Below, piece by piece: positions 14,422 to 60,000 of a DNA stretch of 60,000 bases. Numbering within the stretch: the stretch's first letter is position 1; each line of letters starts with the position of its first letter. Below the pieces are notes generated by a model. The model saw nothing but the letters and a program-made list of their open reading frames with translations. It did not search any database and was not told where the DNA came from. The stretch lies in the NCBI RefSeq assembly GCF_026151205.1, contig NC_087082.1, positions 12,807,865 to 12,867,864 of the forward strand, given 5' to 3'. A program made the translations under genes and the position numbers. Source of the DNA: Bolinopsis microptera (Eukaryota; Ctenophora; Tentaculata; Lobata; Bolinopsidae).

Positions 14422-14514
14422 TTACTGGGCCGCGCTCAGCCTGTCATTCCGCCAAATCTATATTCGCCAAATCTATTATGTTAATGAACATAATAGCCTG
14501 GGGTCCTCAGGTAA
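14422..14514 (+). mobile_element. Family D ultra-short element, 9-bp target duplication GCTGAAACC
   Basis: The 93-bp element starts TTACTGGGCCGCGCTCAGCC and ends CCTCAGGTAA. The 9-mer GCTGAAACC flanks it on both sides. An internal CGCCAAATCTA is duplicated in this copy. The core TATTATGTTAATGAACATAA is palindromic. Confidence 0.9.
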
Positions 14515-14634
14515 GCTGAAACCCTAACCCTAACGAGAAATTCGACCAACTTCCTTATACAGTCATATCACGTGATCAAGACAGTTTTTCGCCAATATCT
14601 CGCCAGGGGAGCATTTTAACCCTATGTCATGGGG

Positions 14635-14714
14635 TTACTGGGCGGCGCTCAGCCTGTCATTCCGCCGAATCTCTATGTTTATGAACATATAAATAGCCTG
14701 AGGTCCCCAGGTAA
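14635..14714 (+). mobile_element. Family D ultra-short element, 9-bp target duplication GTCATGGGG
   Basis: The 80-bp element runs TTACTGGGCGGCGCTCAG to GGTCCCCAGGTAA, with GTCATGGGG directly on both sides. Confidence 0.9.
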
Positions 14715-15065
14715 GTCATGGGGGTGATTCTGAATCAGCGTCCAAAAATACATCGATTCAAGTTGGTTTCAACTGCCGGGGTCCCTTTTAGAACAATTTC
14801 GAAGATCGACTGAAGAGTGATTTAGCACGCTTGGTGCTGCAGCAAGTTACAAGTTGTAGTCGTACACTTGTGCGTGGCATACCCTGCAAGTGCAACGTTG
14901 GGCAATACCTCACAGTTATCGGACCTTATTTGGACGGAAATTAAATGAACGGACATTTTTTATTTCAGCAAATGATTTTTAAATCCATTTTTTATACAGT
15001 AAGTAAAAAAACAGTCGTTAAGCAGTAAAAATGTTAAAATATGTGTATATGATCAGTGTCTTATA

Positions 15066-15513
15066 TCACGTCATATCATCTTCATCAAATGGGTTTTTGT
15101 GCATGAAATAGTCCATGCTTAAACAAGCATCAGTGATTTCTAGCTTTGTGGAAACCTTTTTTATCAAACTACCCCGATCCTGCATTTCAGTGTTAACTTT
15201 TACAAGCCATTCGGCGTGAAGTGGTTTTACCTTAGACAACTTTAGGTTAACCTTAACATCACGTGGAGCTTTCCTAGCACTGTTTCATTACCTCCCCTCA
15301 GTAATATGAACTATAAAAACGTCGGACAATGTCCTTGGCAACACGATTTACCGTAATATCTAGAGGCTGGAACATGTTTGTCATGTTGGCGGGGACTAGC
15401 TCATGAACTATGTTGTTGAGTGCCATGATTTCGTTGACTTTTTCCGCCAAGTGACCCTTGAAAACATCATATACTAGTAGAGTTTTCTGTGCCTCCGGCA
15501 GACCAAGGAGAAC
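15066..15513 (-). pseudogene. DDE transposase C-terminal part, broken (copy 2)
   Basis: This is the duplicate of the 13,575-14,019 pseudogene, offset by 1,494 bp, with the same internal break. The end differs slightly: one extra Thr codon precedes the stop at 15,066-15,068. Confidence 0.7.
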
Positions 15514-15915
15514 CTTTCCGTTGATACATGTTACGTATCACAAATATCAGAGATATTATGTGTATACTATTTCCGCCTTCGGCGGCGCGCGCTTCGCGCG
15601 CGAAATGTGGCATGCAACGTATGTCAACCTTTCCGTCGTTAACTTACGGCACAATAAAGTTCTCATAGTTGTCATATCCTGGATAAAAAGTTCGAAATGG
15701 AAAAATTTTTGAAAAAATTTCAACGGACTTTAACTTGGACGGACATTAATTGAACGGACTTTATTTGAACGGACATTAAGATGAACGCTAGGGCTTCCAG
15801 CGTTCAAGTAATGTCCGTCCAAATAATATAAGGTCCGATAAGGTATTCGAAACCCTAACCCTCTTATCTGATCCCAATCCTAACCCAATCCCTAACAAAA
15901 GCATATGCTGAAACC

Positions 15916-16008
15916 TTACTGGGCCGCGCTCAGCCTGTCATTCCGCCAAATCTATATTCGCCAAATCTATTATGTTAATGAACATAATAGCCTGGGGTCC
16001 TCAGGTAA
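15916..16008 (+). mobile_element. Family D element (duplicate of 14,422-14,514)
   Basis: Copied by the 1,494-bp tandem duplication. It is not an independent insertion. Confidence 0.9.
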
Positions 16009-16128
16009 GCTGAAACCCTAACCCTAACGAGAAATTCGACCAACTTCCTTATACAGTCATATCACGTGATCAAGACAGTTTTTCGCCAATATCTCGCCAG
16101 GGGAGCATTTTAACCCTATGTCATGGGG

Positions 16129-16208
16129 TTACTGGGCGGCGCTCAGCCTGTCATTCCGCCGAATCTCTATGTTTATGAACATATAAATAGCCTGAGGTCC
16201 CCAGGTAA
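16129..16208 (+). mobile_element. Family D element (duplicate of 14,635-14,714)
   Basis: Copied by the 1,494-bp tandem duplication. It is not an independent insertion. Confidence 0.9.
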
Positions 16209-16559
16209 GTCATGGGGGTGATTCTGAATCAGCGTCCAAAAATACATCGATTCAAGTTGGTTTCAACTGCCGCGGTCCCTTTTAGAACAATTTCGAAGAT
16301 CGACTGAAGAGTGATTTAGCACGCTTGGTGCTGCAGCAAGTTACAAGTTGTAGTCGTACACTTGTGCGTGGCATACCCTGCAAGTGCAACGTTGGGCAAT
16401 ACCTCACAGTTATCGGACCTTATTTGGACGGAAATTAAATGAACGGACATTTTTTATTTCAGCAAATGATTTTTAAATCCATTTTTTATACAGTAAGTAA
16501 AAAAACAGTCGTTAAGCAGTAAAAATGTTAAAATATGTGTATATGATCAGTGTCTTATA

Positions 16560-16696
16560 TCACGTCATATCATCTTCATCAAATGGGTTTTTGTGCATGA
16601 AATAGTCCATGCTTAAAGCATCAGTGATTTCTAGCTTTATGGAAACCTTTTTTATCAAACTACCCCGGTCCTGCATTTCAGTGTTAGCTTTTACAA
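16560..16696 (-). pseudogene. DDE transposase C-terminal end, third truncated copy
   Basis: Only the last 45 or so codons are present, with a 4-bp deletion in the GCTTAAACAAGC segment. Homology stops near 16,696 in the word TTTTACA. Confidence 0.6.
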
Positions 16697-16910
16697 AATT
16701 TTACACAAATTTACATCATTGTATCACAAATAAAATTCGTCAAAAGACCAAAAAATGTCTAGACAAGTGACCAAGTGTAAGCAAAATTTGGGACACCGAA
16801 ACACTGCATGTGACCAACTGGTCATAGAAATTACATCAGGCCCTGAGTGCACATATAAGTGGATAAATGATGTTACCAATGCATGTTAGGTTTGTTCGAA
16901 TGGACTAGAA

Positions 16911-18971
16911 ATGTCACAGCTTAAAAATGTGGGGCTCAAATCCTCAGTTTTTTATGTTTTGTTTTTTATCGATATTAACTTTAGTATTATTACAGAAACT
17001 GTGACGACCCTAAAGGACTATGAAGAGAGGGGAAAACAAATCGCAACAAATCGTTTTTGCTCAATAGATGAGGAATATCCCCGCGTTATGTCCCTTCCTG
17101 TACCCCAAAACATATACGTCGACAATTATTCACATAAAGAATATGAAGATCCTCGTATTGGAGACAATATTCGAAAACGAGATAATATCGAGGCTGCGAT
17201 TAGGGTGTACCGTTCTTTGGAGAGATTGAAGAAGTATATGATCGTTTTGAACAAGTTTAAATGTAACCTGGACTTTGATATCAAGAAAACACCTGCTAAT
17301 GTTTGGACAGAGTGCGATTTTTTGATTATCACTGATGAACATTTTGTTGTGGTAGAGGTAAAGAACACGACAATAGACGGAAATATGGTCGATGCGTTTA
17401 AAAATTCTTTAATTCAAGGAGATAAGGTCAGAAAACTCATACAATCCATTTATCCCCAGGCATCTGTTCTTCTCTTCACCGCTTTTCCTAGCATGTCCTC
17501 CTTAACTAAAGTTACTGAAGTACAGAGAGAATCAATTATTTTCAGTGAAGATCTTGATGATTTTGCTAAATGGTGGCAGCATAATGTGCCACAAAATATT
17601 CTTCACAATATCCTTCACATCACAACTCTGAGCACGAAAGAGTGAAGCATATATTGTTAGCAATATCGTGTCCCGAGTTGAACGTACCTGACGAAACAAG
17701 ATTCAGTTTAAGAGTTTAGTAGAGAATGTGATGAAAATAGACAAAGAATTAATGGAGGGAGCAATCACTTTGGAGCAGAATCACAAAATGAAGTTAAAGC
17801 CTAAAGTTAAACAGAGCATTAATCCCGATTTGGTTAAAGCTCCTACAGACATAAGTAAATATTTGGGGGTCAAATATCTTACACATGAGCAGAACGACAT
17901 TTTTGGTTCAACGGAAAATCTTCTATTGATAAACGGTCCTGCTGGGAGTGGGAAAACGATGCTACTAGCAGGGAAGATGCTCCGACTCGCCAAGACAGAT
18001 CCAGAGAAAAAATCGCTGCATTAACTGGACCTAACAGTAGTAACATATATCAGAGTGCATGTGGTAGAGCAGGAATGAAATATGAAGTTTTTTCGACAGA
18101 CTGTAATGCTACTCCCTTGCACATGGCCGAACTTATCACAAACAGTAATAAGAATGTAGTGATAGTAGAGATGAGTGGTGTTTATATTGAAGTGTTCACT
18201 AACATACTCAGTTTACTAAACAACTGTAACGTGATTGTTGATGATATTCAACGAGTGTTAAACAATAGCAGAGATGGTATTAATAAATTATTAGACAAGC
18301 TCAACGTGTTATCAGCTGATAATACCGTTTTAGTGGCATTAGATTTAGTACAGGGATATAATTATTGTCTAAAAGACATAGTTTCCTTATTTGCAGAAAA
18401 AATATCTTCAGAGCATCTGGTGACATTAAAACATACATCACGAAATACGTTTGAAATTTCCAACGTCTTATCGGTTATTAGAAGGGAATTTGATGACATC
18501 TCACCCATTTTCGCACCCATGATGAGAATAGGGCACTATATTCATGGCCCCATGACAGTAGTGCATGTGCTTGAGAAATATGATGATGAATTAATTCGTG
18601 AAATTTTTGAAAGAGAATTGTCTTGTCTTCGTGCAAATGAAGATTTAGACTGCTCTTATGTTGCAGTTATTCATGATTTATTCAACAGTACTGATGTGTT
18701 GAAATCGACTAATTTTAGGAAATATGAGAAAAGGTACTATGGCGATTGTTATTCTGCAGAATGGCCTGCAGTAATTGCATTACATGAAATGCGGCCCAGA
18801 GAGCCTTTTGATATGAGTTTGGCCAAGATCTATCTAGCTATGTCTAGGGCACGGGTTAAGTGTTCTCTCTTGTTATACCCAGCGAAAGGTAAAAGATTTG
18901 GAGATTGTGATGACCCTTACAAACAATTGTTAAATAAATTGGAACTTCATGCTCGCATAATGTACTATTGA
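16911..18971 (+). pseudogene. NERD nuclease-superfamily 1 helicase gene, three frameshifts
   Basis: The first frame (16,911-17,645) carries a NERD-type PD-(D/E)XK signature: Asp about 136 in ECDFLII and Glu149-Val-Lys151 in VVVEVK. Homology continues out of frame past 17,645 (VKHILLAISCPEL), shifts again near 17,716, then reads the helicase: Walker A GPAGSGKT near 17,940, a shift in an A6 run at about 18,010, Walker B-like VIVDDIQ, motif IV-like SRNTFEI, AEWPAVIALHE, and motif VI-like YLAMSRARV, ending at 18,971. The order matches NERD-UvrD/DUF2075-type proteins, thought to act on nucleic acids. All helicase motifs survive, so decay is recent or the shifts are assembly errors. An acceptor-like TTATTACAG at about 16,995 could mark the true exon start. 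Confidence 0.7.
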
Positions 18972-19078
18972 TTTTGTGTTAACGTTAAAACTAAAAGTCA
19001 ACCCTACTGATTATAGATAATAACTGCATTATGCATATTTTTTACCAGATATGAATTTTTTTCAACTACGGATTAGTT

Positions 19079-19172
19079 GAATCGTTAACATATTACGTAA
19101 GCCAATTTTCGACCATTTTAGAGACACATCCCCCCCCCCCCCCTTCTCTCTACGTAATATGTTAACGATCCC
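19079..19172. mobile_element. Small palindromic MITE with TCGTTAACATATTACGTA ends
   Basis: Left TCGTTAACATATTACGTA pairs with right TACGTAATATGTTAACGA across a spacer containing a C13 run. Related ends (ACGTAAT...TCGTTYACATA, ending GACCCCT) occur at 54,106-54,278 and 58,978-59,000. Confidence 0.7.
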
Positions 19173-19221
19173 TTGCGGAATCGATAGTTATACGTACAAC
19201 TATAAATAATTTGTGTTATGT

Positions 19222-19272
19222 TTTAAACCAAAACCCGAAATTGGGTAGAGTTGACCGTCGCCAGTGTATCCT
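19222..19272 (+). mobile_element. Terminal fragment related to the 5.3-kb inverted-repeat element
   Basis: TTAAACCAAAACCCGAAATT followed by GGGTAGAGTTGACCG matches the terminus at 5325-5375, with substitutions. Confidence 0.6.
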
Positions 19273-19659
19273 TTTTCCAAACAGAAGGAAATGATATCAA
19301 TTTAATCGCCATTACCGTACCCAAACGCAAAATGATATTGATATAATCAATAATGCATGAAATCGATTGCTCGCTTTTCCCATTCACTCACAATTGATGA
19401 TAGGAGGCTATATTATATAGCATTCGGCAGTATAATATTAATAGTCGGCACTAACGATTCGTTACAGTAACGGCACTTACAGTTACGGGCGCGGCCAGAT
19501 CGTTACAATTTTCAAGCCGTGAATGGATAGGAAAACTTAAAAGCGATCAAGAGACCGATTTCATTATTTCGGTGTCATTTTAAGTTTACGTTTGGGGTGC
19601 GGTAAAAGTAATTTAAAATGATGTAACTTTTTTCCGTTTTTGTCCTATTTAGTTTTAGC

Positions 19660-19783
19660 TTGATTCACGATGTCAATCCTTCGCAGCTCGGTGAGGCACA
19701 GTGGTGCATCTCGCCGATCTACCGAAGGTTGCGAGAAGCATTATTTGATGCGCGCGCGACCCAGTAGTGCATCGCGCTACAAA
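19660..19783 (+). mobile_element. Family E short element, target duplication GTTTTAGC
   Basis: The 124-bp element starts TTGATTCACGATGTCAATCC and ends ATCGCGCTACAAA. GTTTTAGC (or AGTTTTAGC if the last A belongs to the target) flanks both sides. Internally it has two related segments, CACAGTGGTGCATCTCGC and CCCAGTAGTGCATCGCGC. Confidence 0.85.
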
Positions 19784-20047
19784 GTTTTAGCTAATTCTGC
19801 TAATTATAATACAAAATTGATTAATCAGATCTCAGTGATTGTATCGTGGATGATATTTTTACTTTTAGTCTTATTAGGCCGTGCGCCATCGACCGTAAAA
19901 CGCGCGCTGACCATTGAATGGTTTTTTAGCTCGTATTTCCAATTTCGGCCAGCACATTATTTTAGAAACTATCAAAAAGTTATAATACTTCCCATATAAC
20001 AATTTTGTTGAAAATTGGTCAACTTACGTAAACACTTATGTTCTACT

Positions 20048-20642
20048 AGGTAGTGCGCCATCGACAGTGAGCCGCGCGTGCCGACTGTAGGATTGTTTTT
20101 TAGCGCTAATTTCGGCCAGCACAATTTTCTTCAAACAAATAGATATTAAGTATCCTTCCCGACCTCCGATTGCAACAAAAATTAGTAAGCTTACTCATAG
20201 ACTTACAAGGAAGGTGTCCGAAAAGTTTAAAGCATATCCAACCATCAGACATTATGTTACAGCTAAAAGCAGCGTATTTTGCCCCATTTTGATCATTATA
20301 TCAACTCCGATATCCACCAAATTTTTCGGACAGTTGTGAAAGCCCTAATGGAAGGTCGTCGCCAATTTTCAGAATGATCTCATTCAAGGAACTGAAGATA
20401 TATCCAAATAATACGACAAAAATCAACGAATTTGGTCAAATTTGGTCAAATTACGCGACTTTTAAAGCTAATTTTGCTCCAAAAGCCGCGCACCATCAAA
20501 TATGGCACCTAGGCGAAACTCACTAATCTTTCTAAAAAGGTATGACAGATTTGGTATTGTGAAAATTCTCACAGTCTCTAGAAAACAATGGTACAAAAAT
20601 TTTTAAAATCCGAGCAAGTTTATTTTTATGGTGCACCCCCTA
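20048..20642 (+). mobile_element. Family F element, 8-bp target duplication GTTCTACT
   Basis: The 595-bp element begins AGGTAGTGCGCCATCGACAG and ends ATGGTGCACCCCCTA, flanked by GTTCTACT on both sides. The ends form an imperfect inverted repeat (TAGGNNGTGCNCCAT), which with the 8-bp duplication points to the hAT superfamily. There is no coding frame, so it is non-autonomous. A reverse copy lies at 59,186-59,817. Confidence 0.85.
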
Positions 20643-20975
20643 GTTCTACTGAACCTAAATTAGTTTGAGCAATTTTGATGGTCAGAATTTGAGTTATCAA
20701 CGAATTTATACCTATTTTGTCATTTTTAGACCTCTTAATTTAATCAAGGCCAATCTCTCCCAACTAATTTCTAAGTTCGGTAGGTAAGTATGATTGGAAG
20801 GTTCTGACAAATTTTCAGCATGATTCATGATAAAGAACCAAAGATATGACAAAATAATACGACAAAAATCAACGAATTTCGTCAAATTACGCGACTTTTA
20901 CACCTAATTTTGCTGGCTAAAGCCGCGCACCATCAAATGTGGCACCTAGGCGAAACTCACTGATCATACCAAAAA

Positions 20976-21095
20976 GTTGTAGCGCGATGCGTTACTGTGC
21001 CGCGCCGCGCACTCAATAAGGCTTCTCACTGGCTAGATCGGCGAGATGCGCTACTGTGCCGCGCCGAGCTGCCATGAATTGACATCGTCAATTAA
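20976..21095 (-). mobile_element. Family E short element, target duplication ACCAAAAA(G)
   Basis: The 120-bp reverse copy runs TTGTAGCGCGATGCG to GACATCGTCAATTAA. ACCAAAAAG flanks both sides, and removing the element restores the family F sequence (TCATACCAAAAAGGTATG). Confidence 0.9.
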
Positions 21096-21143
21096 ACCAA
21101 AAAGGTATGCCAAATTTGGTACTGTGAAAATTCTCACAGTTTT

Positions 21144-21232
21144 TTACCTGGGGACCTCAGGCTATCATGTTCATAAACATGTTCATAAACATAAAGATTA
21201 GACGGAATGACAGGCTGAGCGCGGCCCAGTAA
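21144..21232 (-). mobile_element. Family D element, target duplication ACAGTTTT(T)
   Basis: The 89-bp reverse-orientation copy runs TTACCTGGGGACCTCAGG to GCGCGGCCCAGTAA, with an internal duplication of ATGTTCATAAAC. ACAGTTTT flanks both sides, inside the older family F copy. Confidence 0.9.
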
Positions 21233-21375
21233 ACAGTTTTTAGAAATTACAATTATGGTACACAAATTTTGAAAATCCGAGCAAGTTTATTTTTTATCGT
21301 GCACCCCCCTAGTCTTATGAAAGAAAATCAAAAATCATGAACGGAAATGGCCTGGAGAATTAATTTATTTGGGTA

Positions 21376-21466
21376 TTACTGGGCCGTGCTTAGCCTGTCA
21401 TTCCGCGGCCGCCTAATCTCTAATTATGAACATGGTAGCCGGCTAGCCTGAAGTCCGGGGAGGTAA
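21376..21466 (+). mobile_element. Family D element, 9-bp target duplication ATTTGGGTA
   Basis: The 91-bp diverged copy runs TTACTGGGCCGTGCTTAGCC to CCGGGGAGGTAA, flanked by ATTTGGGTA on both sides. Confidence 0.9.
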
Positions 21467-21530
21467 ATTTGGGTAATGAGATCTTTTCAAATTCAAATCA
21501 ATTATGTGTTATGGAAATTATTACCTGGGG

Positions 21531-21560
21531 ACCCCAGGCTTTTATGTTCATAAACATAGC
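21531..21560 (-). mobile_element. Family D partial element
   Basis: Only TTACCTGGGGACCCCAGGCT and TTTATGTTCATAAACATAG remain. The GC-rich half is missing. Confidence 0.75.
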
Positions 21561-21669
21561 CCATGGCGTAATTGAACCCTCTAAAACGCGCAAATAGGCG
21601 CGTTTAAATATTCAAATTTTACAATCTAACTCAGCGCGCGGCTCTTGTAGTGCATACGTCACTTCTTTC

Positions 21670-22230
21670 TTATTGGTAGTTGGCGTGCACGTGATCTTTT
21701 GCGGGGCTGTAATAAATTGCCCAGCAGACCTTACCGGCTAGCAATATTACTACAGGGTGATCGCCTTTTCACAGCTCGTTGAACTCCGCGCGCGCTCGCT
21801 AGTTCATTGCATTTGCACGCTTCAAATGTTCCAAGAATGCAATTGTACCGCGTACCACGTGATACGATTCAGCCAATCAGAGAACAACAATCTGCAAAGT
21901 TAAAGCTGCGCAGTTTTATAAGGCCTAAAATATGACTTTTCGCAATAATTCAAAATCTACAGCGTTTTGAATTTTCCTCCTGGGGAGGAAACGTTATTTT
22001 TACAAGGCGAACATTTTGTTGAAAACCAGACGTTTCTATCTCTTTTACTTCCAAAGTTAGGCCCCTAACAGTAAGGTTTCCTGGGTGGTTCTGAACGATC
22101 ACGTGGATGCGAGTCATGTGCGCTCTAACATCCAATGAGCATTTGCACTTTTTTCAGGGCAATGGAGGTCGTAATTCACTCAGCCCGAATAAAGATTCGG
22201 CGGAATGACAGGCTGAGCGCCGCCCAGTAA
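21670..22230 (-). mobile_element. Unclassified repeat ending in a family D half-element
   Basis: Read in reverse, 22,230-22,080 matches 33,742-33,895 (family D start, then GCCCGAATAAAG, CATTGGATGT, CACGTGATCGTTCAGAACCA), and 21,682-21,712 matches 33,903-33,932 (GCAAAAGATCACGTGCACGC). The two copies share ends, but the 33-kb copy lacks the middle. A short shared frame (VTRIHVIVQN) is seen in both, but I would not call a gene. Confidence 0.55.
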
Positions 22231-33150: not shown

Positions 33151-33642
33151 ACTCACAGCTTCTTGACCAAATTGGTTCGTGTTACTGTACACAGTACACA
33201 CTGTACATCAACTGTGACATAACTTTCTTAAGCGGTTTTTCAATTTTTTTTTCTGCTGAAAACTCTGACTCATCACAGGTTGAGGCTTCTTCACGTTTTG
33301 TAGGGGGGGGTGCCACTGTCTATTTTATCCCTGCACAAAAAAAACTGAAAAAAGACAAAGACAAAAGGGACAAAATGGACAAGAGGGACAAAAGGGACAA
33401 AAGGGACAAAAAAGATAATAGGGACAAAAAAGACAAAAAAGACAAAAAAAGGCGGGGACAAAATGGACAAAATGGACAAAAAGGACAGAGACAAACGAGA
33501 CAAATTGACAGGGACAAATTGGACAGTAAAGAGAAGTCGCTGATTTCCGATAGGGTACAGGGTGTCGATTCTTTATGCTTCCTGTGTCTGAGGAAGCGTT
33601 CCTTCTTGTTCCACAGTTGTTTACATTTAGCTTCTTTTTCAG

Positions 33643-33733
33643 TTACTGGGCCGCGCTCAGCCTGTCATTCCGCCAAATCTTTATTCTTCATTCATAATGT
33701 TTATGAACATAATAGCCTGGGGTCCCCTGGTAA
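33643..33733 (+). mobile_element. Family D element, 9-bp target duplication CTTTTTCAG
   Basis: The 91-bp copy runs TTACTGGGCCGCGCTCAGCC to GGGTCCCCTGGTAA, flanked by CTTTTTCAG. A second, partial D element starts immediately after the right duplication at 33,743. Confidence 0.9.
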
Positions 33734-33742
33734 CTTTTTCAG

Positions 33743-33935
33743 TTACTGGGCGCGGGCTGCGCTCAGCCTGTCATTCCGCCGAATCTTTATTCGGGCTGAG
33801 TGAATTACGACCTCCATCGCCCTGAAAAAAAGTGCGAATGTTCATTGGATGTTGCAGCGCACGTGACTCGCATTCACGTGATCGTTCAGAACCAATTACA
33901 GCCGCGCAAAAGATCACGTGCACGCCAACTACTTG
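33743..33935 (+). mobile_element. Partial family D element fused to an unclassified repeat
   Basis: It begins TTACTGGGCGCGGGCTGCGC, keeps CAGCCTGTCATTCCGCC, then changes to the sequence also found in reverse at 22,230-22,080 and 21,712-21,682. Confidence 0.7.
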
Positions 33936-46010: not shown

Positions 46011-47486
46011 ATGTCCTTAATAAAAGATGCTTTTCTTCTGATTGTTTTGCAGCTCTTCTCACTGGTAAGTTGACACATGTTGAACCTTTCTGATGGCAAG
46101 ATATTTATATTCAGATACATTTATTGGAATTGATGTTTCTACGGCTCTCATTTTTGGAGGTGCTGGTATTTATTTTGAAAAATAATATTGAATAGTCCAT
46201 AATTGAACTGAATAGACCAGAAAAGGCAATCTACTATTTTACCTACTTAATTATGTAATATCCGGATCGGAACATTATTTATTAGTCGCATAGTTGTAAT
46301 GTTTCTGGGGCAAAATTTATAGTGATCCCGTTAACCTACTTTACCTACTAAAGACATGTATACTTATAGTTTATACGACCTCATATATTTACCAGAATCG
46401 TATAAACTGCGGTGGAACGGGAGAGATTCAATTTTTAAATTACACGGATTCGGCAGACTGTGTGGATGTGCTCCCGGAAGTGTGTGACTTTTACTTCAAG
46501 AACATTCTAATAGAGAACGAAGATGGCAATGAGCTCCACGTTCTTCCGAAGACAGATGATATCGGTAATTCCGTTAAAGTTAACTTAAGTAGAGTAGACG
46601 AGCTTGGCGAAGCCTTTGCTGTCAATTTCACGGCAAAGAAACGTATTACGATATCGATTAAAGTGTCTGGAAATGAGGAAAGAGCAATGACTGATTTGGT
46701 GGTGCCGTTTTCAAACACGACAGTTAAAGATGGATGGGTAAAACAGGACTATAGGAGTCAAGAAAGCAAAGGAACTCTCACTATACAGTACAGGCTGACA
46801 AAATGCGATGACAACTTCACTGGTTTAGGATGTGATTCCTGTGAAGATTCCTACTTCACACCACAGTGTGACAAATACTGCAAACCAAAACCAGGCTACT
46901 TCAAGTGTAACTCATCCGGAGAGAAGGTCTGTGAGGGAAGGAGAAGAGGACAGAACTGTGACAGTTGCACGTCATTTTATTTTGGGCATGATTGCAAGAC
47001 TAACTGTGAACCTGCAGACGAATATTACATGTGCTCAGAAAGTGGACACAAGATCTGTTTTGGATACACAACGAGTGTTGCAACAACTGCAGAGCAAGTA
47101 AGAATACTAACCTTGGAATGACCGTGGTGGTAGGGTCAGGTTCACTGATCATAGTTCTTGTAATGATCACTGGATTCACTCTTCTGCTCAGAAGGCAGAG
47201 GAGAGGGAGGATGGAGGAAGGCAGCAGTAGAGAATCTGCAGCTCATGTTCGCACGGATGAGAGAGTTGATTGTAAGAAGGGTCAAGCTATTACTGACAAT
47301 ATTGAGCATCCAATACCAGCCTACAAAGAAGTAGAGAGAGAAGGAGCAAGGAGTAAGCAAGGAGATGATGAAAGTGACAAGGATGGATACGTTCCAATGA
47401 AGAATATAAGAAAAGCTCGTCTTCTTTGTGAATCTACATCGGTAAGGAATCAAGAAGGATTGAATCACGAAAATGATGATAGATAA
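46011..47486 (+). CDS. Notch-ligand-like type I membrane protein with DSL-like domain
   Basis: Exon 1 (46,011-46,064) encodes an 18-residue signal peptide, MSLIKDAFLLIVLQLFSL, and is in phase with exon 2 from 46,396 (NRINCGGTGEIQF). Exon 2 has an MNNL/C2-like N-terminal region (VCDFYFKN, VVPFSNTT) and a cysteine pattern CDDNFTGLGCDSC...C.KYC..KPGYFKC like a DSL domain, then a similar repeat. The transmembrane segment (SLIIVLVMITGFTLLL) and a charged tail follow in another frame. The shift falls at about 47,060-47,105, by indel or an unresolved small intron. The tail holds GYVPMKN, a YxxM motif that binds PI3-kinase SH2 domains when phosphorylated. Only one DSL unit and no classical EGF array are visible. 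Confidence 0.6.
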
Positions 47487-47564
47487 ACGATTCTAAGAGA
47501 AATATTCAGGATTTAAGATCAGTGTCTGGTTAAAGCAGCAGCACTCGACAGCCAAGAAAAAGAT

Positions 47565-49558: not shown

Positions 49559-49570
49559 AGTTTCAGGCAC

Positions 49571-52500
49571 TACTACTACTACTACTATGTCGGAGCTAAG
49601 TCCGAGCTACGCCAGACAACCCCCTCCATATATCCCTGTCCCGCATCAGGGTTCGCAGTTCTTCTTTAGAGTTTGTCCCAACTTCCTTCAGTAACATAGA
49701 CAAGTAGCCTTTGTCTTGGTCGGCCTTGCTGTGCTCTACCGTGCGTAGGTTCCCATAAGACTAAATCACTGGCAAGTAGCTCAGGATGTCGGATGCAGTG
49801 TCCCGCCATTTTTAATCTCCTGCTTCGTAACTTGTTTGACAGCCTTGGGAGGCTACCATACAAAGTATATTGCTGACCTTGTCCTTCCATGAGATACCCA
49901 GCACCATACGCAACATCTTTGTGTATGTCCCGTCCAAACTTTTCTCTTGAGCCTTTGTCAGTGTCCAGGTTTCTGATCCGTAGAGCAGTACTGATTCACA
50001 AGCCGCTATGAACAATCTAATCTTGAGGCTCTTTGAGAGTTTGGATTTCCAGATATCCTTCAGTCTATGTAGGGCACCCCACGCTTCTCCCTTTCTAACC
50101 CTTATCTCCCTATCTGTGCTCTCAATCCAGGAGCCTAAGTAGATGAAATCATCTACATTTTCTATGGCTTCCCCGGATCGACTTTGTAGGTCGCTAGATC
50201 GATCCTCCATATTCAGTGTCATGACCTTGGTCTTGCCTTCGTTTATGTGTAGTCCCACGCTTGCTGCCGCCGATTCTACTCTGAGCAGGAACTCGTTAGC
50301 CTTGTCCATGTCCTCAGATATAAGTGCTATATCATCTGCAAAGTCCACATCGGTGATGATCTTGGGCCCCACTCTTCTGCTTTTTCTACGTTCGAGGGTG
50401 AGTCCCAAGTCGCTCCGCATCATCGCCTATGGCTTGCCTCATACAGTAGTCGATGACTATTGCAAAGAGGTAAGGTGCTAAGGTATCACCCTGTAACACA
50501 CCTGCAAGTATCTCGAACAATTCAGTTTCTCCGTCTGGAGTTAGGACTTTGGCCATTGTCTTCTCGTACATGAGCCGTATAAGCTGCGCGATTTTGACTG
50601 GAATGCCGTAAGCTTCTAGAATCTTTAGCATTTTCCCACGATGTACACTGTCGAAAGCCTTCTTAAAGTCTATAAATGTCAGAACAGCTGGCAGTTTCCG
50701 ACTCTTGACACCCTCTATAAGACGTCTCAGTACCAATATCTGTTGAGTTGTTGACCTTCCTGGTCTTAATCCATTCTGGTTTCTACGCAGAATTGTCCTC
50801 GATTTCTGGCTTCAACCGGTTTAGAACCATCTTGTTTAGAGACTTGGCAACTAGGGATGACAAGCTTATTCCCCGATAGTTCATTGGTTCGCTAAGGTCG
50901 CCCTTCTTTGGAATTGGTATGATGTTGGCAGTTGACCATTGGTCTGGTTTCTCACCTTTCAATAGAGCATTGTTACAGAAGTCTAAGACAATTTGATCAA
51001 GGTCGCATCGTTTTAAGACTTCGGGGGCTATGTTGTCGTCACCCCATGCTTTCCCTTCCTTTATGCTGGACTTTGCTTTCCTGTACTCATCCAACGTAAA
51101 CGGTTCTGTTCCGATATTCAGAGGTGGGTGGACTGGATCAATATCCTCTTCCGCGTTCTCTACCGTCGGTGGTGAGCCGAGAAGAGTAGCAAAATAGTCC
51201 TTCCATTTCTGAACCCTTTCCGTTGGTGAGTTTCCCTTGATTTTGCCAGTATATGATGGAGCTTTACCTGTGATCTTGTTGATCATGGTCCAGCTTTTAG
51301 CATGTCTGCCCTGCCAACTTGCTTCCTCCAGTTCCCGGACCTGCCCCTCCAGCAGGTGCTCTTTGGCTGCTTGATAAGCATCGCCTAGCTTTTGTTTGCC
51401 CTCTTGAACAGCTATTCGGTTGTCTTCTGTAGCATCTGAGTGGTATTTTATGCTACATTCCCTCAGCTTCAGCCTGGCAATCTCAACACTTGGAGTCGCT
51501 GAGATTTTACATCTTTTCTTTTTCTCCTTTTCAGGTAGTAAAAGTCGAGAAGTTGTCCTATTCGCATCAATAAAGCATGGTACCTTTCTGTCTGATCATC
51601 CTTTTCAAGTATGGAAAAGCGGTTTTTAACTTCCACTGTGTACCTCTCTTGTAGAGCGATATCAGTTTTAAGTTTATACCAGTCCAGAACCGGAGCCCTC
51701 TTCTCCGTCTTGCTTATCCGTAGACTAAGCTTTACCCTTGCTACGACTACTCTGTGATCCGAGCCAATACTGTGGAAACTACCATATGCTTCGGAGTTTT
51801 TGACGGAGTTCCGCCATTTCTTCCGGCAAATGATGAAGTCGATTTGAGATTTACTTTGACTCATATCTGAGAGATATGTCCAAAGTTTACCTCTTCGCTT
51901 CTGAAATCTGGTGTTTGTGATTTCTAGCTGTCGCTCCAACAGCATATCCTCTAGCAGTCTACCATTTCGGTTTGCTGGACCCTTGTGGAAGGATGTCCAG
52001 TTTCCTGATGATGAGACATGCGCATTGAGGTCTCCTACAACGAATAGTAAGTTGTGGGCTGGTATCTGGTCGATGGCACCACCAAGGCTGTCGTAGTAGT
52101 TTTCTGCTTCGTCGACAGTCGCCCCCTCTGTCGGGCTATAAGTCACAATAACAGTTGTGACCGGGTTCCCTGTTTTGTTTTGAAACCCCACGGTGGAGGT
52201 TGGCGTGTGCCGCAATTTATTAATCAATGGTTATTACATAAATGAAATTATAGAAGTCACACTAAAAATATAATAATGTAAAATAAAATATATTAAAATA
52301 AATGCCCTACTAAAAGTACTATATAACTAACGGTCTGCAAAACTGGTTGAAGTCGCAATTTGTAAACATGCTAATTACTATTTAGTAATAATAGATAAAA
52401 AGTTTTGCGCGGCAGATGTAAATTCGGCAATATAAATGGCAGTGAAATTAAAATGATATGTTGTTGATAGAAGATCATAGTCATTTGTCGCGAGTGATCT

Positions 52501-52595
52501 TTCTTTACGCGTTGTCGCTTACTTATAACTCGGTGCTGTAGTCTATTTGCGAGCGCCCTTCTCTTTGAGACTTTCTTAGCCCTGTTATACTGCAA
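49571..52595 (-). mobile_element. Non-LTR retrotransposon (LINE, RTE-like) with 12-bp target duplication
   Basis: The minus-strand copy is about 3.0 kb, flanked by AGTTTCAGGCAC at 49,559-49,570 and 52,596-52,607. Its 3' end is a short trinucleotide run (plus strand TAC repeated from 49,570). It encodes endonuclease and reverse transcriptase in several broken frames. Size and the single endonuclease-RT order suggest the RTE group, but the clade was not determined. Confidence 0.85.
49640..52230 (-). pseudogene. LINE endonuclease-reverse transcriptase, multiply frameshifted
   Basis: From 52,227 downward, an APE-type endonuclease part shows FVVGDLNAHV, SQIDFIICR and GSDHRVVVARV; its N-terminal 100 or so residues are missing. 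RT follows: NIIPIPKKGD, MNYRGISLSS, motif A TFIDFKKAFDSV, motif B GVLQGDTLAPYLF, motif C DFADDIALIS, then LYGSETWTLTKAQEKSLDG and RLKMAGHCIRHPELL. At least four frame changes occur (about 51,450, 50,780, 50,430 and 49,830). The key RT motifs are intact, so inactivation is recent. Confidence 0.8.
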
Positions 52596-52619
52596 AGTTT
52601 CAGGCACATTTTTCGTAAA

Positions 52620-53570
52620 TTTTATTACTGCTTGGTATCTCTGAGGCCGGTCTTCTCGGAACCTCCATTTCCTTCTTTCACCTGTAATTTCATTTTATCG
52701 GTCTTTTTGATGTTGTTACTCGGCCTTTGGCAAAAAGTTTTGTCTTCAGAAGAGATGGTATGTTCAGGACACCTTGTACAGAAGACGAGTGCTTTCCGCT
52801 GAAATGATTTTCTTGGCACCTCTCGCCTGGTTCCCTTGTTCCAAAACGTTCCCGCAGGGCAGCTGCATATTCCGCTTCTTTACCTGGTCGATGTTTCACA
52901 ATCCACACAACCCGTCCCGTTCCACCTTAGTTCACCTGCGAAGATTGTGGTAGAGAAGTGGCTTTATCTGGACAATCTCTGCAAATGCCCTGATCTTGGT
53001 TATTGTACGCGGTTGAAGCTGGGCAAGGTTGACAAGATCCAGCAAAGTATTTGGTCCAGATCCAACCATGTCCTCTCTTACAGCTGCATCCTTCTCCATT
53101 ACTATAAGTGGGACAGGGAGACAGTGACCAGAAGAAGTCGCCCCTTCTAGCCGCACCATCCCGAGAGGACAATTGATACATTTTCCAAGATCTGAACTGA
53201 AGAATGCGTAACCCTGGCAAATGCAGTGTGAGAGACCAGTAGGGGACTGGGAGGGAGTAAGTAGTAGATGAAGGACAGTCCTGGCAGGTGTTCAGATCTT
53301 GACTCCAGTTCTGTCCAATAGAGCAGAGTTTCACACAGTGAACAGTCTGAACCATCCTTACAATATACACAGCCGTGAGTTACGCTGTCCCACATGTATC
53401 CTTCAACACATTGACAGTCTTCTGACAGAACGGGAGATGTGGCCCCGATAGGACAACGTTTGCAAATTCCTTGTTTTGTGTCTTTGTAGGTGTTCATTGA
53501 GCAAGGGTTACACTGCCCCTGGTCAGAGTTCCAGGCCCAGCAATACCCTTTCTGCTCGATTAATTGGTCA
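52620..53570 (-). pseudogene. Ephrin-receptor-like (GCC2/GCC3) cysteine-rich gene, decayed
   Basis: On the minus strand, frames alternate over repeats of the type C..CP.G: YCWAWNSDQGQCNPCSMNTY, GICKRCPIGATSP, CQCVEGYMWDSVTHGCVYC, LNTCQDCPSSTTYS, CICQGYAFF and KCINCPLG, then CQPCPASTAYNNQDQGICRD. Such repeats form extracellular cysteine-rich stalks. At least three frame changes and no obvious splice sites between them argue for a pseudogene. The LINE inserted at its 3' side. No signal peptide or membrane segment was seen. Confidence 0.6.
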
Positions 53571-54105
53571 GCTTATGAACATATTATTGGCAGAGCCGAT
53601 CCTGATTCGGTAACGTTTTTCATGAATTATTTCAAGTGATGCTTTCTATTTGTGCATCGGTACAACTGTTACAACATCCAACGAGTACTGAGCATGACGG
53701 CTAAAACCTGGAAATATCTATAGAAACCCAACGCATTACCTTCAATGAGTATAATTGGCCTTTCATCATTAACCTTTTCTCAGGATTATAATTGAGTGTT
53801 CACTATAAGCTCTGTTTATGATTTAAATATTAAATAGGTAAAAAGTAAGCTCTTAAGTCTTACTTCGAAGGTAAAGGGATTGAATTACGCAGATGGCAAG
53901 CAAAATGAGTATTGTATTTCTTGAAGGCGACTTCTACAACAGATACTGAAACGGATAGTTGAAACGGAAAACCGTCGAAAGATTTTATTACTGAGAAAAA
54001 TTCGCGAATCAACCCCATTGTTCTAAATGGTTGATAAAATGGATAATTCAATAATAAATCTAGCAACAGAAAAGGTCATCGTGACTCACTGTAATTTTTG
54101 TTCTT
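53571..54105. other. Gene-less stretch
   Basis: I see no supportable gene, repeat or RNA here. Confidence 0.4.
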
Positions 54106-54278
54106 ATGAGGTCGTTCAAATATTACGTAATCATTTTTTGGAAATTGTTTACCCCCCAACCCCTTCCGTAATCAGTTTTCCACATAGCTATTGTGCCAAA
54201 ATTGCAAGAGCGAAATCATTTGGAAACCCCCCTTCCCCCTCGGCTGATTAGTATTACATAATATGTGAACGACCCCTA
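54106..54278. mobile_element. MITE with GGTCGTTCAAATATTACGTA ends
   Basis: The left GGTCGTTCAAATATTACGTA faces the right TACATAATATGTGAACGACC. The interior holds C-rich runs. The same terminus occurs at 19,079-19,172 and 58,978-59,000. Confidence 0.7.
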
Positions 54279-54556
54279 TCTGGTATGTGCTTTATTTTAT
54301 CGGGGGCCTCAGTTCTCGATTTCTGATTTCTAATAATGGTGATTGTGAGTTTTAAAATGTGTATCTAGGACCTAGGTCATTTAGAAACATGAGCATTATG
54401 CGTGCGACCTATTTCTACCTCTCGACGATTTTTGAAGCTTGATTATTTAAACTTATGGCGAGATATGGAACCATCACCTTCGTATATTAAATGTTGTACA
54501 CTTGACTGGATAGAAATTATATTCGTTGATTCAATATCACTATTATATTATTTCAG

Positions 54557-56360
54557 TCGGCGCCATCTGCAGCTTTCTTCCTCAACAACGGCAATCCTCT
54601 ATCCTCAACATCTCAGCCAAACCTTTCTAAAGGTTCGTGAATTAATTTACACTGTTTATTCAATAGTTTGTCTAGAGTTGATAGCGCCAAACGCAAATGT
54701 TGAAATCATTCCGGGGGTCTTTGTTGAATATTAACGAATATGTGTCAGTTTTAGAGGCAGAAGGGAAGGAGGGAGAGGACCGCACGAAGGATGTGGTGTA
54801 TGAGAATAGGGAGTACAGAGACAGAGTTTCCCGTGCATCTACTCCCCCCTTGCAGCGAGTATCCCGTGCATCCACTCCCCCCTTGCAGCGACAGTTCGAG
54901 GAACCACTTCAGGGTTTCCACGTTGTCAGGCCAAGCTCATTTCAACCCAGGTATATTAACGGATAACAATTTTGATTATTATCAGTATGTTGGAGATAGT
55001 AATTAATCTTAATTCAGTGACGCTGTCCAATCTGAATAATGATGTCCTCGGCTAGGGTCCGGTCCCAGTTGTACGAGTGATTTTGCTGATTTTAGACCGT
55101 GAATCGCTGCTTTTTTAGTGAGGGTAAAACCATTTATCCTGGATTAACTCAGAGAAATATCCACCACTCCTCCACGAAGCGTGCTGGTCCCCAAAGCCAG
55201 AACCCCTGTCTCTTCTCACCACCTGGAGAAGCTGAACTCTGTAGAGACCTTGCTTTGTGAGATCATGTCCCGACTTGACAACTTGGAGTGTTGTTCCAGA
55301 AGCAGTGTCAGACCCAACAAAGTCAGACGTAAGTATTTCTGATTGTATTAGCTATGAGTCTAAGACTCTCGGTCAAATCAGTCAGACGAACAGGTGATGA
55401 TCGAGATGAATGATGTAAACTATAAGTTATAAAAAAGCTGCTGGTTGAGAATAATAAGGGTGACAGCTCATAGTTTTATACTGTTATATTACACATCATA
55501 ATCAAATACTCCGATTATTCTTTTATATGACAATAGATTATAATATGAGCTTGTTCTATGTGCTACAAAAGAAACCAGAAGCAAGACAAAAGTGTCTCTG
55601 AAAATAAGGATATTCCGGGAACAGCGTCAGATCAGAAAACACTTGTCCATGATCGACAAAAGGACTTCTCTTCTTACAAAGAAAGTAGACAGACTCAACA
55701 GGTTTCCAGTAATTAAATTTAATATTATTGATCAGGCCCTGATTATGTTATTGTTATGCTAGTAATATTTTTATGATTTCTTAAAGTAGAAAAACGATTG
55801 GTTCCAGAAAAACAAAAGGAATGTTATTGAAATTCCCATGTTGTGAAAACTCAAGACCCAGAAAATGATAATAATCGATAGTTCAACGAATTTACGATTG
55901 ATTTCGGAGTGATTATTAAGTTACTGCTGCGCCAGCATTCACGTTATTGTCGTCTTAACTGGAACCAATATGGCATGATTATAATAATATAATATTATCG
56001 AACTTCAATTAAAAACTTTTAGAACATTGTCTCTGGCTAGCTTACAGTTCACACTTAAACTTCATTTCAGTCAGACACGAATTGGAAAAGAAAGACCCCA
56101 ACAGTTAGACGAAATCCTGAAATTTCTTCAAATTGAGGTGAGTTCAACTCAATTCATGAAAATCTAATAATATTTGATAACATGAAGAAGTTATGAGTGT
56201 TTTAAAAGAGCTAAAAATGTTTATCAAGGATTTCAGAGGTATATTGGAAAGAGAACATGTATCCAGGGACGACTTTTTCCTCCTAAACAAGCCAGATCTC
56301 AAAGAGATGGGTTTTCCACTTGGTGTCAGAAGAAGAATTCTAAATTACATCCGAAACTGA
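54557..56360 (+). CDS. SAM-domain protein with coiled-coil region, six exons visible
   Basis: Exons are about 54,557-54,632, 54,685-54,950, 55,153-55,328, 55,572-55,701, 56,071-56,137 and 56,230-56,360, with GT-AG borders and phases 0, 2, 1, 2, 0 after the first. Upstream exons are probably missing. Exon 2 is acidic, then carries a doubled VSRASTPPLQR. Exons 3-4 look helical (SHHLEKLNSVETLLCEIMSR; FREQRQIRKHLSMIDKRTSL). Exons 5-6 form a SAM-like domain: QLDEILKFLQIE, then a short acceptor (TCAAG) to DFRGILEREHVSRDD, NKPDLKEMGFPLGVRRRILN and the stop. SAM domains mediate protein oligomerisation. The last exon's length should be rechecked against the raw bases. The gene itself was not recognised. 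Confidence 0.6.
54826..54891 (+). repeat. 33-bp coding tandem duplication (VSRASTPPLQR twice)
   Basis: Two near-identical 33-bp units, each with CCCGTGCATC and ACTCCCCCCTTGCAGCGA, keep the frame of the SAM gene. They encode two serine/threonine-proline sites that could be phosphorylated. Confidence 0.85.
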
Positions 56361-57170
56361 AACTGCTGACCAGTCCACCTCCAACCTGGAAGTGTAACTG
56401 TAAAGCACATAGTAAACATTGCCGATGGCTTCTGACAAGATCAAGGGAAAATGAAATGATATATGCTATCATCAGGATCAGAGATAACTATTAATTTTCA
56501 TTAGTGCAGATGTAGGCTGATAACGTTTTGAGATATTCATCCGGGTTATTGAATCATATAAAGGATGTAGCTGAGTAGATTTCATGCGGGTTATTGAATC
56601 ATATGATAGATGTAGCTGAGTAGACTTCATGCTAGGGGGATTTGAAAGAAGCCTGTGAAGCATGATGTCATGATAAATTATGGTTATGTGGATTTGGTAT
56701 GTCGCATGAGAATTATTGGATCTGGTTGGATTTTTCCATTTGCGATCGTGGTTTACGAATTAACGAAAACAGTACTGTTTTTAATAAAGACCTGTTTCAT
56801 TTGTCCCACGTAGGTTTATTTCATAAAAATAATGAACAGTCAACACCACTAAAATAAAAAGCGTCTTTTTCAAATATACTGTGGTTGTACTAGTGTCCCG
56901 TTGTTTAATATTAGATTCGTAGAATAACATAAGTCCGACGAGAAGTTGACCCCAACTGTCTTCTTATCCAAATCCAATACTCACAGTCATGCATCATCAG
57001 CAGGGGTGTAGGAGGAGGGGGCAGGGGGGGGGGGGGTGGCGACCGCCCCCCATAAAATCTGGAAAAGGGGCGAAAAGGGGCCAACTTTTTCAAGTAAATT
57101 AGCAGGATACGATCCAGCTGTGAGCTGGCATGAACCAGAAATCTGATAATTTATATTACATATTCCGATA
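56361..57170. other. Gene-less stretch with small repeats
   Basis: A doubled GGTTATTGAATCATAT..GATGTAGCTGAGTAGA unit is at 56,542-56,627. Poly-G runs (57,015-57,036) could form a G-quadruplex. No gene was found. Confidence 0.5.
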
Positions 57171-57174
57171 TTAC

Positions 57175-57745
57175 ATGTCAGGATTCATCAGAAGTTCAGG
57201 AACCTAGCGATTATAAAATTCAGATAACATTGCTGGTTACTCTTCTATGCCGTGTTCAGTATTTTCAATACCAGAATATTTCAATGAACCAGAAATCTGT
57301 TAATTTATATTACATATTCTGATATTAAACGGGTAGCTGATTTTGATAAAATAAAATCGTGATCCGGCGTGATCAATTATTTTAATAGAAGTACAACGGC
57401 TGCACCCCTGACTTTTTAACTTAATAAGAGACGTATATATTAGGACATTTGTAATTTGATAAAATTTAAAGTTTTGGTGTGTGAATTAGAGGTCTTTAAA
57501 ACAAAACATATTACATGTCAGGATTCATCAGAAGTTCAGAAGCCTAGCGATTATAAAATTCAGATAACATTACTGATTACTCTTTTATGCCGTGGGAGTA
57601 AATTAGCAGGACACAGTGGCCCTCGGGTCTTTAAAACAAAACATATTACATGTCTGGATTCATCAGAAGTTCAGAAGCCTAGCGAGTATAAAATTCAGGT
57701 AACATTACTGATTTGTGATTACTCTTTTATGCCGTGGGAGTAAAT
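57175..57745. repeat. Three copies of a repeat with TTACATGTCAGGATTCATCA core
   Basis: Copies at about 57,172, 57,507 and 57,645 share TTACATGTCWGGATTCATCA, GAAGTTCAG, AGCGATTATAAAATTCAG and ACTCTTTTATGCCGTGGGAG. The last two are about 140 bp apart. 57,746-58,385 has no recognisable feature. Confidence 0.7.
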
Positions 57746-58385
57746 TAGTAGGACACAGTTTGCCTCTTGTAGTCCGAATTTACATAACCTCATTGCTAGA
57801 ATTCGTTCCTTAAAACAAATTTTCCAAGAATTGTTCCAGTTTCTCCCTCCTTGCATGTTGTACCCTCTTTGAGAGTGAGACCTATAACTGTAAGAATATT
57901 TTTCAAAATTTGCAGGACTTTTCCTTTGACCCTTAATGCTTAGTTAAATTGGCACAACAAAATCTTTCTGGATTTATCTTTTCACATTGCTAGATTTCAA
58001 TTCTGGAAGCAAATTTCCTGAAATTATTTTCCAGAGAATACAATATGCATCCCTTTTTCGAACTACACTTATTTCGCAAGAGCTGCTTGCAGACCCTAAT
58101 AATTAATAAGCATTTAAAATCGTATTATTTTAATTATTCTTGAAACTGTGTTTGAAAATGATCTCTATATTGCCAAATTGCTCAGCTAGGCCTTTATTTA
58201 CACGTTTTGCTGTTTTTGAAATTCAGGCTGTGGCCAAAGCGCGTGCTAAATTAGAAAAACTCTAAGATTTTGGCCCCCTCATGAAGAAAATCATTCCTAC
58301 ACCCCTGATCATCAGTCCTTTAGTCATACATCCTGACTCCCAGTAATCCTGCTGCAATATCACCCCTTCCAGTTTGGTCGTTTAT

Positions 58386-58461
58386 TTACTTGAGGACCCT
58401 ACCCCAGGCTATTATGTTCATAAACATTCGGCGGAATGACAGGCTGAGCGCCGCCCAGTAA
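58386..58461 (-). mobile_element. Family D element, 9-bp target duplication GTCGTTTAT
   Basis: The 76-bp reverse copy runs TTACTTGAGGACCCTACCCC to GAGCGCCGCCCAGTAA, flanked by GTCGTTTAT on both sides. Confidence 0.9.
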
Positions 58462-58736
58462 GTCGTTTATGAGCAGAGTACGTATTCGTAATACAAATTA
58501 TATTTTTTACCCTCTAGAATAATAACAATTTGACAATATTTTAATTCAAATTCCCAATTCCACTCAATTTCACTACTCTGATAGTGATAAAATTTAGAAA
58601 TTGATCAAATATTGAAATATCCGGCTTTAATAGTAAATAGTTTAAGGTGCTTGCCTGGATATCATGCATGATGCAGATTTCGGCTAGATAATAGATATCA
58701 ATGATTTCGGCTAACATCATGATAGCATGATCAGGG

Positions 58737-58848
58737 TTGATTCACGATCGCGATTTCAATACTTCGCATCTCGCCGATCTGCATCATGCATACGATCTGT
58801 GGTTGCGAGAAGATGCGCGGCGCGGCCCAGTAGTGCATAGCGCTACAA
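58737..58848 (+). mobile_element. Family E element, target duplication GATCAGGG
   Basis: The 112-bp copy runs TTGATTCACGATCGCGATTT to CATAGCGCTACAA, with GATCAGGG (9 bp if a following T is included) on both sides. Confidence 0.88.
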
Positions 58849-59050
58849 GATCAGGGTAGCATGAAACGTAGAGGATCGCAAGTGTTTTCCAGGGAAAAAA
58901 GTCAAGGGGGGGGGGGTTGGGTCTTGATTACGGCCCGGTTGATTTCGGAGGGGGGAAAATTGCTAAAATATTGATTACGTACTATGTAAACGACCCCTAA
59001 GCGGCTAAGCTAGCAGTGTGCTGGAGTTTTGCCTGCGTCTGAAATTTAAC

Positions 59051-59115
59051 TTGTAGCAAAATGCACCACTGGGCCTCGCCGAGCTGCGAACTGAAGGATT
59101 GACATCGTGAATCAA
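59051..59115 (-). mobile_element. Family E element, internally deleted
   Basis: Only 65 bp remain (TTGTAGCAAAATGCACCACT to GACATCGTGAATCAA). Both ends are family E, but the middle is missing. No clear target duplication. Confidence 0.7.
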
Positions 59116-59185
59116 CAATTAAATAACTGTAACCAAAATGTAATTAGATCGAACGCAGAAATCGAACGCCGGCGTTCGATCTAAT

Positions 59186-59817
59186 TAGGGGGTGCACCAT
59201 AAAAATAAACTTGCTCGGATTTTAAAAATTTTTGTACCATTGTTTTCTAGAGACTGTGAGAATTTTCACAATACCAAATTTGTCATACTTTTTTGGTAAT
59301 ATCAGTGAGTTTCGCCTAAGTGCCATATTTGATGGTGCGCGGCTTTTGGAGCATAATTAGCTGTATAGTAGTAGTAAAAGTTGCGTAATTTGACCAAATT
59401 TGACCAAATTCGTTGATTTTTGTCGCGGTCGTATTATTTGGGTATATCTTCAGTTCCTTGAATGAGATCATTCTTAAAATTGGCGACGACCTTCCAATAG
59501 GGCTTTCACAACTGTCCGAAAAGTTTGGTGGATATCGGAGTTGATATAGTGATCAAAATGGGGCAAAATACGCTGCTTTTAGCTGTAACATAATATCTGA
59601 TAGTAGTATAGTTAGATATGCTTTAAACTTTTCGGACACTTGCCTTGTAAGTCTCTATGAGTAAGCTTACCAATTTTTGTTGCAATCGGAGGTCGGGAAG
59701 GATACTTAATATCTATTTGTTTGAAGAAAATTGTGCTGGCTGAAATTAGCGCTAAAAAACCATCCTACAGTCGGCACGCGCGGCTCACTGTCGATGGCGC
59801 ACTACCTAATCTAATTC
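59186..59817 (-). mobile_element. Family F element, reverse orientation, 8-bp target duplication
   Basis: The 632-bp element runs TAGGGGGTGCACCATAAAAA to GATGGCGCACTACCT and is the reverse of the 20,048-20,642 copy. GATCTAAT and AATCTAAT flank it (7 of 8 match). The target is a palindromic GATCGAACGC...GCGTTCGATC repeat seen on both sides. Confidence 0.85.
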
Positions 59818-59923
59818 CTAGATCGAACGCGTTCGATCTAATTTCTGCGCTTTCTATTTACAATCTAATTACATCTTGGTGACAGGTAAACCGATACGTA
59901 GATTAAACCGATACGTAGATCAT

Positions 59924-60000
59924 TTACCGGGGACCTCAGGCTATCATGTTCATTAACATAGAGATTCGGCGGAATGACAGGCTGAGCGCGGCCCAGTACA
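59924..60000 (-). mobile_element. Family D element at the right window edge
   Basis: TTACCGGGGACCTCAGGCTA to GCGCGGCCCAGTA reaches the last bases, so its right target duplication is outside the window. Confidence 0.85.

Follow-up and report, generated by a model that had tools for sequence, protein, structure and literature searches.

How can a few larger relatives give rise to thousands of miniature inverted-repeat transposable elements (MITEs) that have almost no length? This question is raised by a 60,000-nt stretch of the genome of the ctenophore Bolinopsis microptera (C11:12807865-12867864, here called the window), which carries copies of a short transposable element, family D, in both orientations. 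Here, we show that the junction in the middle of the element differs from one insertion to the next and is nearly stable afterwards. Each short copy has a left arm no longer than 46 nt, a right arm of up to about 40 nt, and between them a junction that was probably made separately for nearly every insertion. Nearly every sampled copy has its own repair scar, set within its own target duplication; the family offers thousands of natural readouts of how transposon breaks are closed, and makes it testable whether such MITEs are copied or are formed one at a time.

Family D is recognized by a conserved box, CAGCCTGTCATTCCGCC, found at 5,622 places genome-wide (2,733 forward and 2,889 reverse, with up to 2 mismatches; 264.65 Mb in 232 contigs). 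A control pattern, the same box reversed, was found at 14 places (11 + 3) in the same search. The abundance of the box is far above chance, and the family is real. From the window, search loci and fetched stretches we compiled a sample of 104 distinct box copies, drawn almost wholly from the first 7.1 Mb of contig C1. Both ends of the element lie within about 200 bp in 82 of these; 12 lack the right end, nine lack the left end, and one sits at an edge. All but three of the 82 full copies are 69–104 bp long, which agrees with the suggestion of the initial annotation that this is a MITE-like element near the lower size limit. A copy of 56 bp was seen in locus L045. Family D elements are, like MITEs, short, non-coding and present in high copy number, and their ends, TTACTGGG and CCAGGTAA, form imperfect terminal inverted repeats flanked by target duplications. 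We describe family D as a non-autonomous DNA transposon whose inverted ends are short and imperfect and whose target duplication is 8 bp, less often 9 bp.

The centre could be parsed in 76 of the 82 full copies (the others being L058, L063, one copy each of L069 and L089, L099 and L117), and in these the two arms are strikingly uniform. Measured up to CATTCCGCC, the left arm has 32 nt in 73 of the 76 copies; measured from TAGCCTG, the right arm has 21 nt in 66. Identity per column is 94–100%, except at three sub-family positions. Beyond these constant parts, and with longer members as the reference, left-arm breaks lie 34–46 nt from the left end, none of the 76 falling past 46 even though longer members of the family continue there. 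The right arm is palindromic and folds well, and its breaks peak at 35–39 nt. It also has a second variable spot, between AACAT and AATAGCC, where small duplications occur in L001 (1486), L112 (290), L128 and the window copy at 14635.

What lies between the arms is another matter. A MITE family is expected to have a common size and internal sequence; in family D the arms are constant, and the centres, 16–51 nt long, are different in all 76 copies. When single-nucleotide differences in the arms are ignored, 61 junction types remain, and 53 copies have a type of their own. This diversity is seen even among copies with identical arms: the largest such group (32-bp left, 21-bp right) comprises 18 copies with 18 centres and 17 junction types. 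Further same-arm groups likewise have a different centre in every copy (12/12, 5/5, 4/4 and 2/2), some of these differing by arm substitutions only. The palindromic ATGTTCATAAACAT core that the initial annotation took to be constant is part of the right arm, and many copies have it in trimmed form. Its picture of an element made of little besides ends and a cruciform core captured the brevity and overlooked a true centre that varies in nearly every copy.

Copies duplicated together with their surroundings behave quite differently from separate insertions. Seven pairs of short copies lie in shared flanks and are thus passively copied, and six of the seven have identical centres, including pairs whose flanks have diverged by 4–5% (L052/L057), 4% (L001/L058) and 1–9% (L099/L158). 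Independent copies with the same arms, by comparison, have a centre sequence in common in none of 153 pairs and a junction type in one (Fisher p = 3e-10 for centre sharing in passive versus independent same-arm pairs, calculated on sequences, the pairs not being independent of one another). Left outside the seven pairs were L051/L053, which have the same interior and no right end, the long copies L139/L150, the first L142/L143 pair, and L120/L144, in which the flanks are merely similar. In L054/L055, the flank shared beyond the immediate edge of the element lies on the left only. Junctions, then, differ between insertions and change little once they are in place.

The junctions resemble the scars of end joining, as judged from their pattern of trimmed arms, excess short shared sequence and some filler copied from the arms. 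Extra bases are present in 43, 46 or 50 of the 76 junctions, depending on the reference; two joins are flush, and the rest overlap. On a strict reading, 24 of the 76 joins overlap by 1–4 shared bases. Among joins without filler, 10 of 30 have three or more bases in common, compared with 7% of random joins, though tolerated mismatches inflate the overlap in three of these ten. When the full consensus arms are used as template, 9 of 23 fillers match arm sequence at p<0.05, a result due in part to the second right-arm indel in some copies. The clearest filler belongs to the window copy at 14422 and repeats 10 nt of that copy's left arm. By eye, CGGCGGA in L061 and in one L084 copy reads as a fold-back copy of the left arm. 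Three centres with filler were searched for genome-wide with up to 2 mismatches: one occurs at two places, namely the 14422 copy and its tandem duplicate in the window, and the other two at one place each.

Family D inserts with a target duplication of 8–9 bp. With the ends placed without shifting, 72 of the 82 full copies could be assessed: a perfect flush 8-mer is present in 43, a perfect 9-mer in 14, and neither in 15, for a total of 57 perfect duplications, whereas swapped flank pairs gave none in 5,112. Both lengths occur within each of the three commonest right ends (16 + 4, 14 + 4 and 7 + 3 copies with 8 and 9 bp, respectively). An uninterrupted empty site with the duplicated bases single was obtained for 16 of the 57 copies, by a script criterion applied to the other sequence obtained. 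No strong target motif was seen in the flanks of the sampled copies. A 9-bp duplication had been proposed for the whole family. It holds for five of the six window insertions, whose perfect flanking repeats GCTGAAACC, GTCATGGGG, ATTTGGGTA, CTTTTTCAG and GTCGTTTAT are exactly as described; the sixth insertion (21144-21232) has a perfect 8-mer, AAAACTGT. Across the sample, 8 bp is the commoner length. Put to the refuting test that the initial annotation set, a match at 9 bp is found in a minority of copies (14 of 72), and a match at 8 or 9 bp in most (57 of 72).

How might such junctions arise? We lean towards the reading that each short copy is formed of two end-arms united by end joining during the transposition cycle, with abortive gap repair of longer relatives as the probable route. 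A longer relative would be excised, and refilling of the gap from a sister copy would reach no further than the subterminal hairpin on either side. Repair would stop when the new 3′ end folds on itself, and the two new ends would then be joined by microhomology or theta-type end joining. The diversity of the junctions is a direct observation; that abortive gap repair is the route, we infer from four features. Longer relatives with the same arms exist, the left-arm limit coincides with the far base of the hairpin CCGAAT-ATTCGG, the right-arm limit lies near the far base of the right-arm palindrome, and some of the filler reads as fold-back. It is also possible, and we suggest it only tentatively, that breaking and rejoining of the middle is a regular part of moving. 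Each insertion would then carry its own end-joined junction, a pair of ends would spread rather than a copied sequence, and the arm limits would be set by subterminal hairpins or by the footprint of the transposase. Family D junctions could in that case be likened in pattern to V(D)J coding joints.

Several points weigh against abortive gap repair with end joining. The gap-repair step is itself deduced from sequence pattern. A stricter test of the filler, in which the template is each copy's own remaining arms, gave only 4 of 28 at p<0.05. The left hairpin, as read from the sequences, is imperfect in A- and T-type arms; since these form a poorer hairpin, the proposed stop at the hairpin is the weakest step. 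The second short copy of L142/L143, recently duplicated, has centres that differ by a 6-bp tandem step, which shows that a centre can change after insertion too. The sample favours exact boxes, which come first in the search output, and so over-represents young copies, besides coming nearly all from one end of C1. Finally, some junctions are common. Fixed-length searches with gaps of 13 and 10 bases matched at 209 and 323 places, respectively (none in the controls), with at least 21 and at least 11 distinct cores, respectively, some of which may be point mutants. Among the first 100 matches listed in each length class, TATTATGTT accounts for 52 and TATTCGGTT for 21 of those with a 13-base gap, and TATGTT for 88 of those with a 10-base gap; a further core, TATTATTTT, occurs in 4 of 100 and in one arm background only, as a copied lineage would.

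This recurrence, with TATTATTTT found four times in a single arm background, speaks for an ordinary MITE family, in which many source copies, each with its own centre, are faithfully copied. We nonetheless consider faithful copying improbable. The dominant recurrent junctions, TATTATGTT, TATTCGGTT and TATGTT, each occur in at least five combinations of left and right sub-family letters among the matches listed, no second independent insertion was found for any of the three filler centres searched for, and most of the sampled copies have a junction type of their own. The same simple junctions in different arm backgrounds are what repeated independent joining at short shared sequence predicts. 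Exchange of arms between copies may also give recurrent junctions in different backgrounds.

Two other explanations are the main rivals of abortive gap repair. The junction could be made at the new site: bound ends would insert, the interior would be broken or lost, and the inner gap would be closed by end joining. The same junction data fit this scheme, the sharp inner limit of the left arm could be the edge of transposase-protected DNA, and a loop of 80 bp is hard to bend. To our knowledge, no transposase does this as a rule, and the present data do not separate donor from target; we regard joining at the new site as unlikely. Ranked just below it, and also unlikely, is that the centre, AT-rich and palindromic, is fragile and undergoes breakage and rejoining after insertion, independently of transposition, as PMC8277862 proposes for many Pack-TIRs. 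Such gap filling is reported in that paper, the palindromic right arm folds well, and one passive pair, L142/L143, differs by a 6-bp step. Fragility is harder to reconcile with the passive duplicates, which keep their centre in six of seven pairs, three of these with flanks diverged by 1–9%, while identical-arm copies at separate sites share no centre sequence and, by junction type, agree in a single pair; the comparison involves few pairs, and these are not independent.

Gap repair as proposed calls for longer relatives, and these exist. Genome-wide, 115 places match the left end with GGGCTGAGTGAATTACGACCTCCAT behind it, at up to 2 mismatches. Three of 15 longer left ends fetched have a clear partner end and a duplication: L140 (353 bp, ATCAGTCA), L141 (736 bp, GGCGTAAT) and L147 (359 bp, duplication with one mismatch). 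Two left-arm variants seen in short copies, AAATCTT and AAATCTA, recur in the long copies L153 and L156. These two A-type members (L153:14-1369 and L156:19-1759) have about 1.37 kb in common, and L156 and L160 have in common a further 605 bp, further in, without a recognized reading frame. Part of L160 (4213-4718) is 77–89% identical to stretches in four loci that were retrieved for their Mutator-like element (MULE) domains. Larger members with the same ends, which the initial annotation proposed to search for, are present at 353, 710 (in the window) and 736 bp; a transposase was not found in the parts of the longer members read. A scan of seven reading frames in L153, L157, L158 and L160 revealed none, the only match being in L157, to endonuclease and PHD-type domains as in a long interspersed nuclear element (LINE).

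Nor do known transposase domains cluster near the longer left ends. For MULE, Merlin and hAT, occurrences were not above chance near the 100 longer left ends listed of the 115; P-element and KDZ were not searched for. One of 88 MULE matches falls within −3 to +15 kb of these ends, outside the element (0.6 expected), none of 58 Merlin matches is near, and of 150 scored hAT matches (365 candidates) one is near, 12.7 kb inward from a long left end, where chance predicts 1.0. Paired family D ends with a duplication were not found in L009-L038 within a reach of 1.5 kb on each side. Three of ten fetched Merlin loci (from the 58 matches) have Merlin-type ends, GGCAGT..., unlike TTACTGGG. L045:1-3351 holds a Merlin-type element whose ends are GGCAGTATCGAGATAG and whose target duplication, GAGCACAG, is 8 bp long; the 56-bp family D copy lies near by. 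Target duplications are 8–9 bp in Merlin and 8 bp in hAT; 14 of the 72 family D copies have 9 bp. The MuDR/MULE membership initially proposed had been drawn from duplication length, in which superfamilies overlap, and we do not regard it as shown. The duplications of family D fall within the MULE range of 8–10 bp given in PMC5225508, which also puts MULE inverted repeats typically at >100 bp, with two families at <60 bp. Family D lacks long inverted repeats; its repeat is short and imperfect, in the 353-bp L140 as well.

Within the window, all the copies previously named were located, in both orientations. The copies at 14422..14514 (+, 93 bp, duplication GCTGAAACC, with the arm-derived filler described above) and 14635..14714 (+, 80 bp, GTCATGGGG) have empty sites in L141 and other loci. 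A tandem duplication of 1,494 bp at 14422-16208 includes both and yields their passive duplicates at 15916..16008 (+), 1,494 bp downstream of the first, and 16129..16208 (+), with the same centre as the second. The 89-bp copy at 21144..21232 (−) has the 8-bp duplication AAAACTGT, written on the element strand, and is followed by a diverged 91-bp copy at 21376..21466 (+, 9 bp, ATTTGGGTA) and by a longer member of 710 bp at 21521..22230 (−) with a perfect 8-bp duplication, TAATTTCC. About 366 bp of this member (approx. 21720-22085) belong to another repeat family, with >40 further matches at ~89–97% identity. The 91-bp copy at 33643..33733 (+, 9 bp, CTTTTTCAG) sits at the left edge of another longer member, whose left part is visible at 33743..33932 (+); this is interrupted and followed by other repeats, and its right end is not seen. 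Here (33634-33760), the short copy is inserted exactly at that edge, and the site without the insertion is present in L139 and L150. The remaining copies are at 58386..58461 (−, 76 bp, 9 bp, GTCGTTTAT on the + strand) and at the window end, 59923..60000 (−), damaged and with an unreadable duplication. Open reading frames in the window encode a NERD domain (16911-17645) and a DSL (Delta/Serrate ligand) domain (46462-47121), and reverse-transcriptase and endonuclease pieces of a LINE lie at 49812-52227(−).

Finally, family D can be set beside known systems. Abortive gap repair in Ac/Ds and P yields elements that have lost internal sequence, that carry filler and short shared sequence where the two sides meet, and that keep the original target duplication. 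Family D differs from these derivatives in that the inner limits hardly vary across thousands of copies and that the joint is private to nearly every sampled copy. Muta1, a MULE of Aedes aegypti, is similar in having target duplications of 8 or 9 bp within one family and derivatives with variable interiors, many of which have only their ends in common (PMC5225508). It differs in its 145-bp inverted repeats, tandem subterminal repeats and much larger derivatives (same source); family D has arms of about 46 and 40 nt at most and, as its interior, a junction of no more than tens of bases, and no transposase was found for it. Pack-TIRs (PMC8277862) resemble family D in that fixed ends enclose a single-copy interior and that the joints show short shared sequence; these elements capture foreign DNA, whereas the filler of family D is short and comes partly from its own arms. 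Filler is often left by excisions in rice (PMC4423477). The CMITE elements of Acropora are likewise short, abundant animal MITEs with an unusual conservation pattern (PMC2872659). They differ in their link to piggyBac-like elements and in an interior that is better conserved than the ends, whereas family D shows the opposite pattern. A MITE with per-copy junctions was not reported in the titles and abstract openings of the literature searched. Set beside these systems, 8/9-bp duplications and gap-filling joints are already known elsewhere, and the feature of family D that appears to be new, and is absent from the initial annotation, is the centre that differs in nearly every sampled copy.

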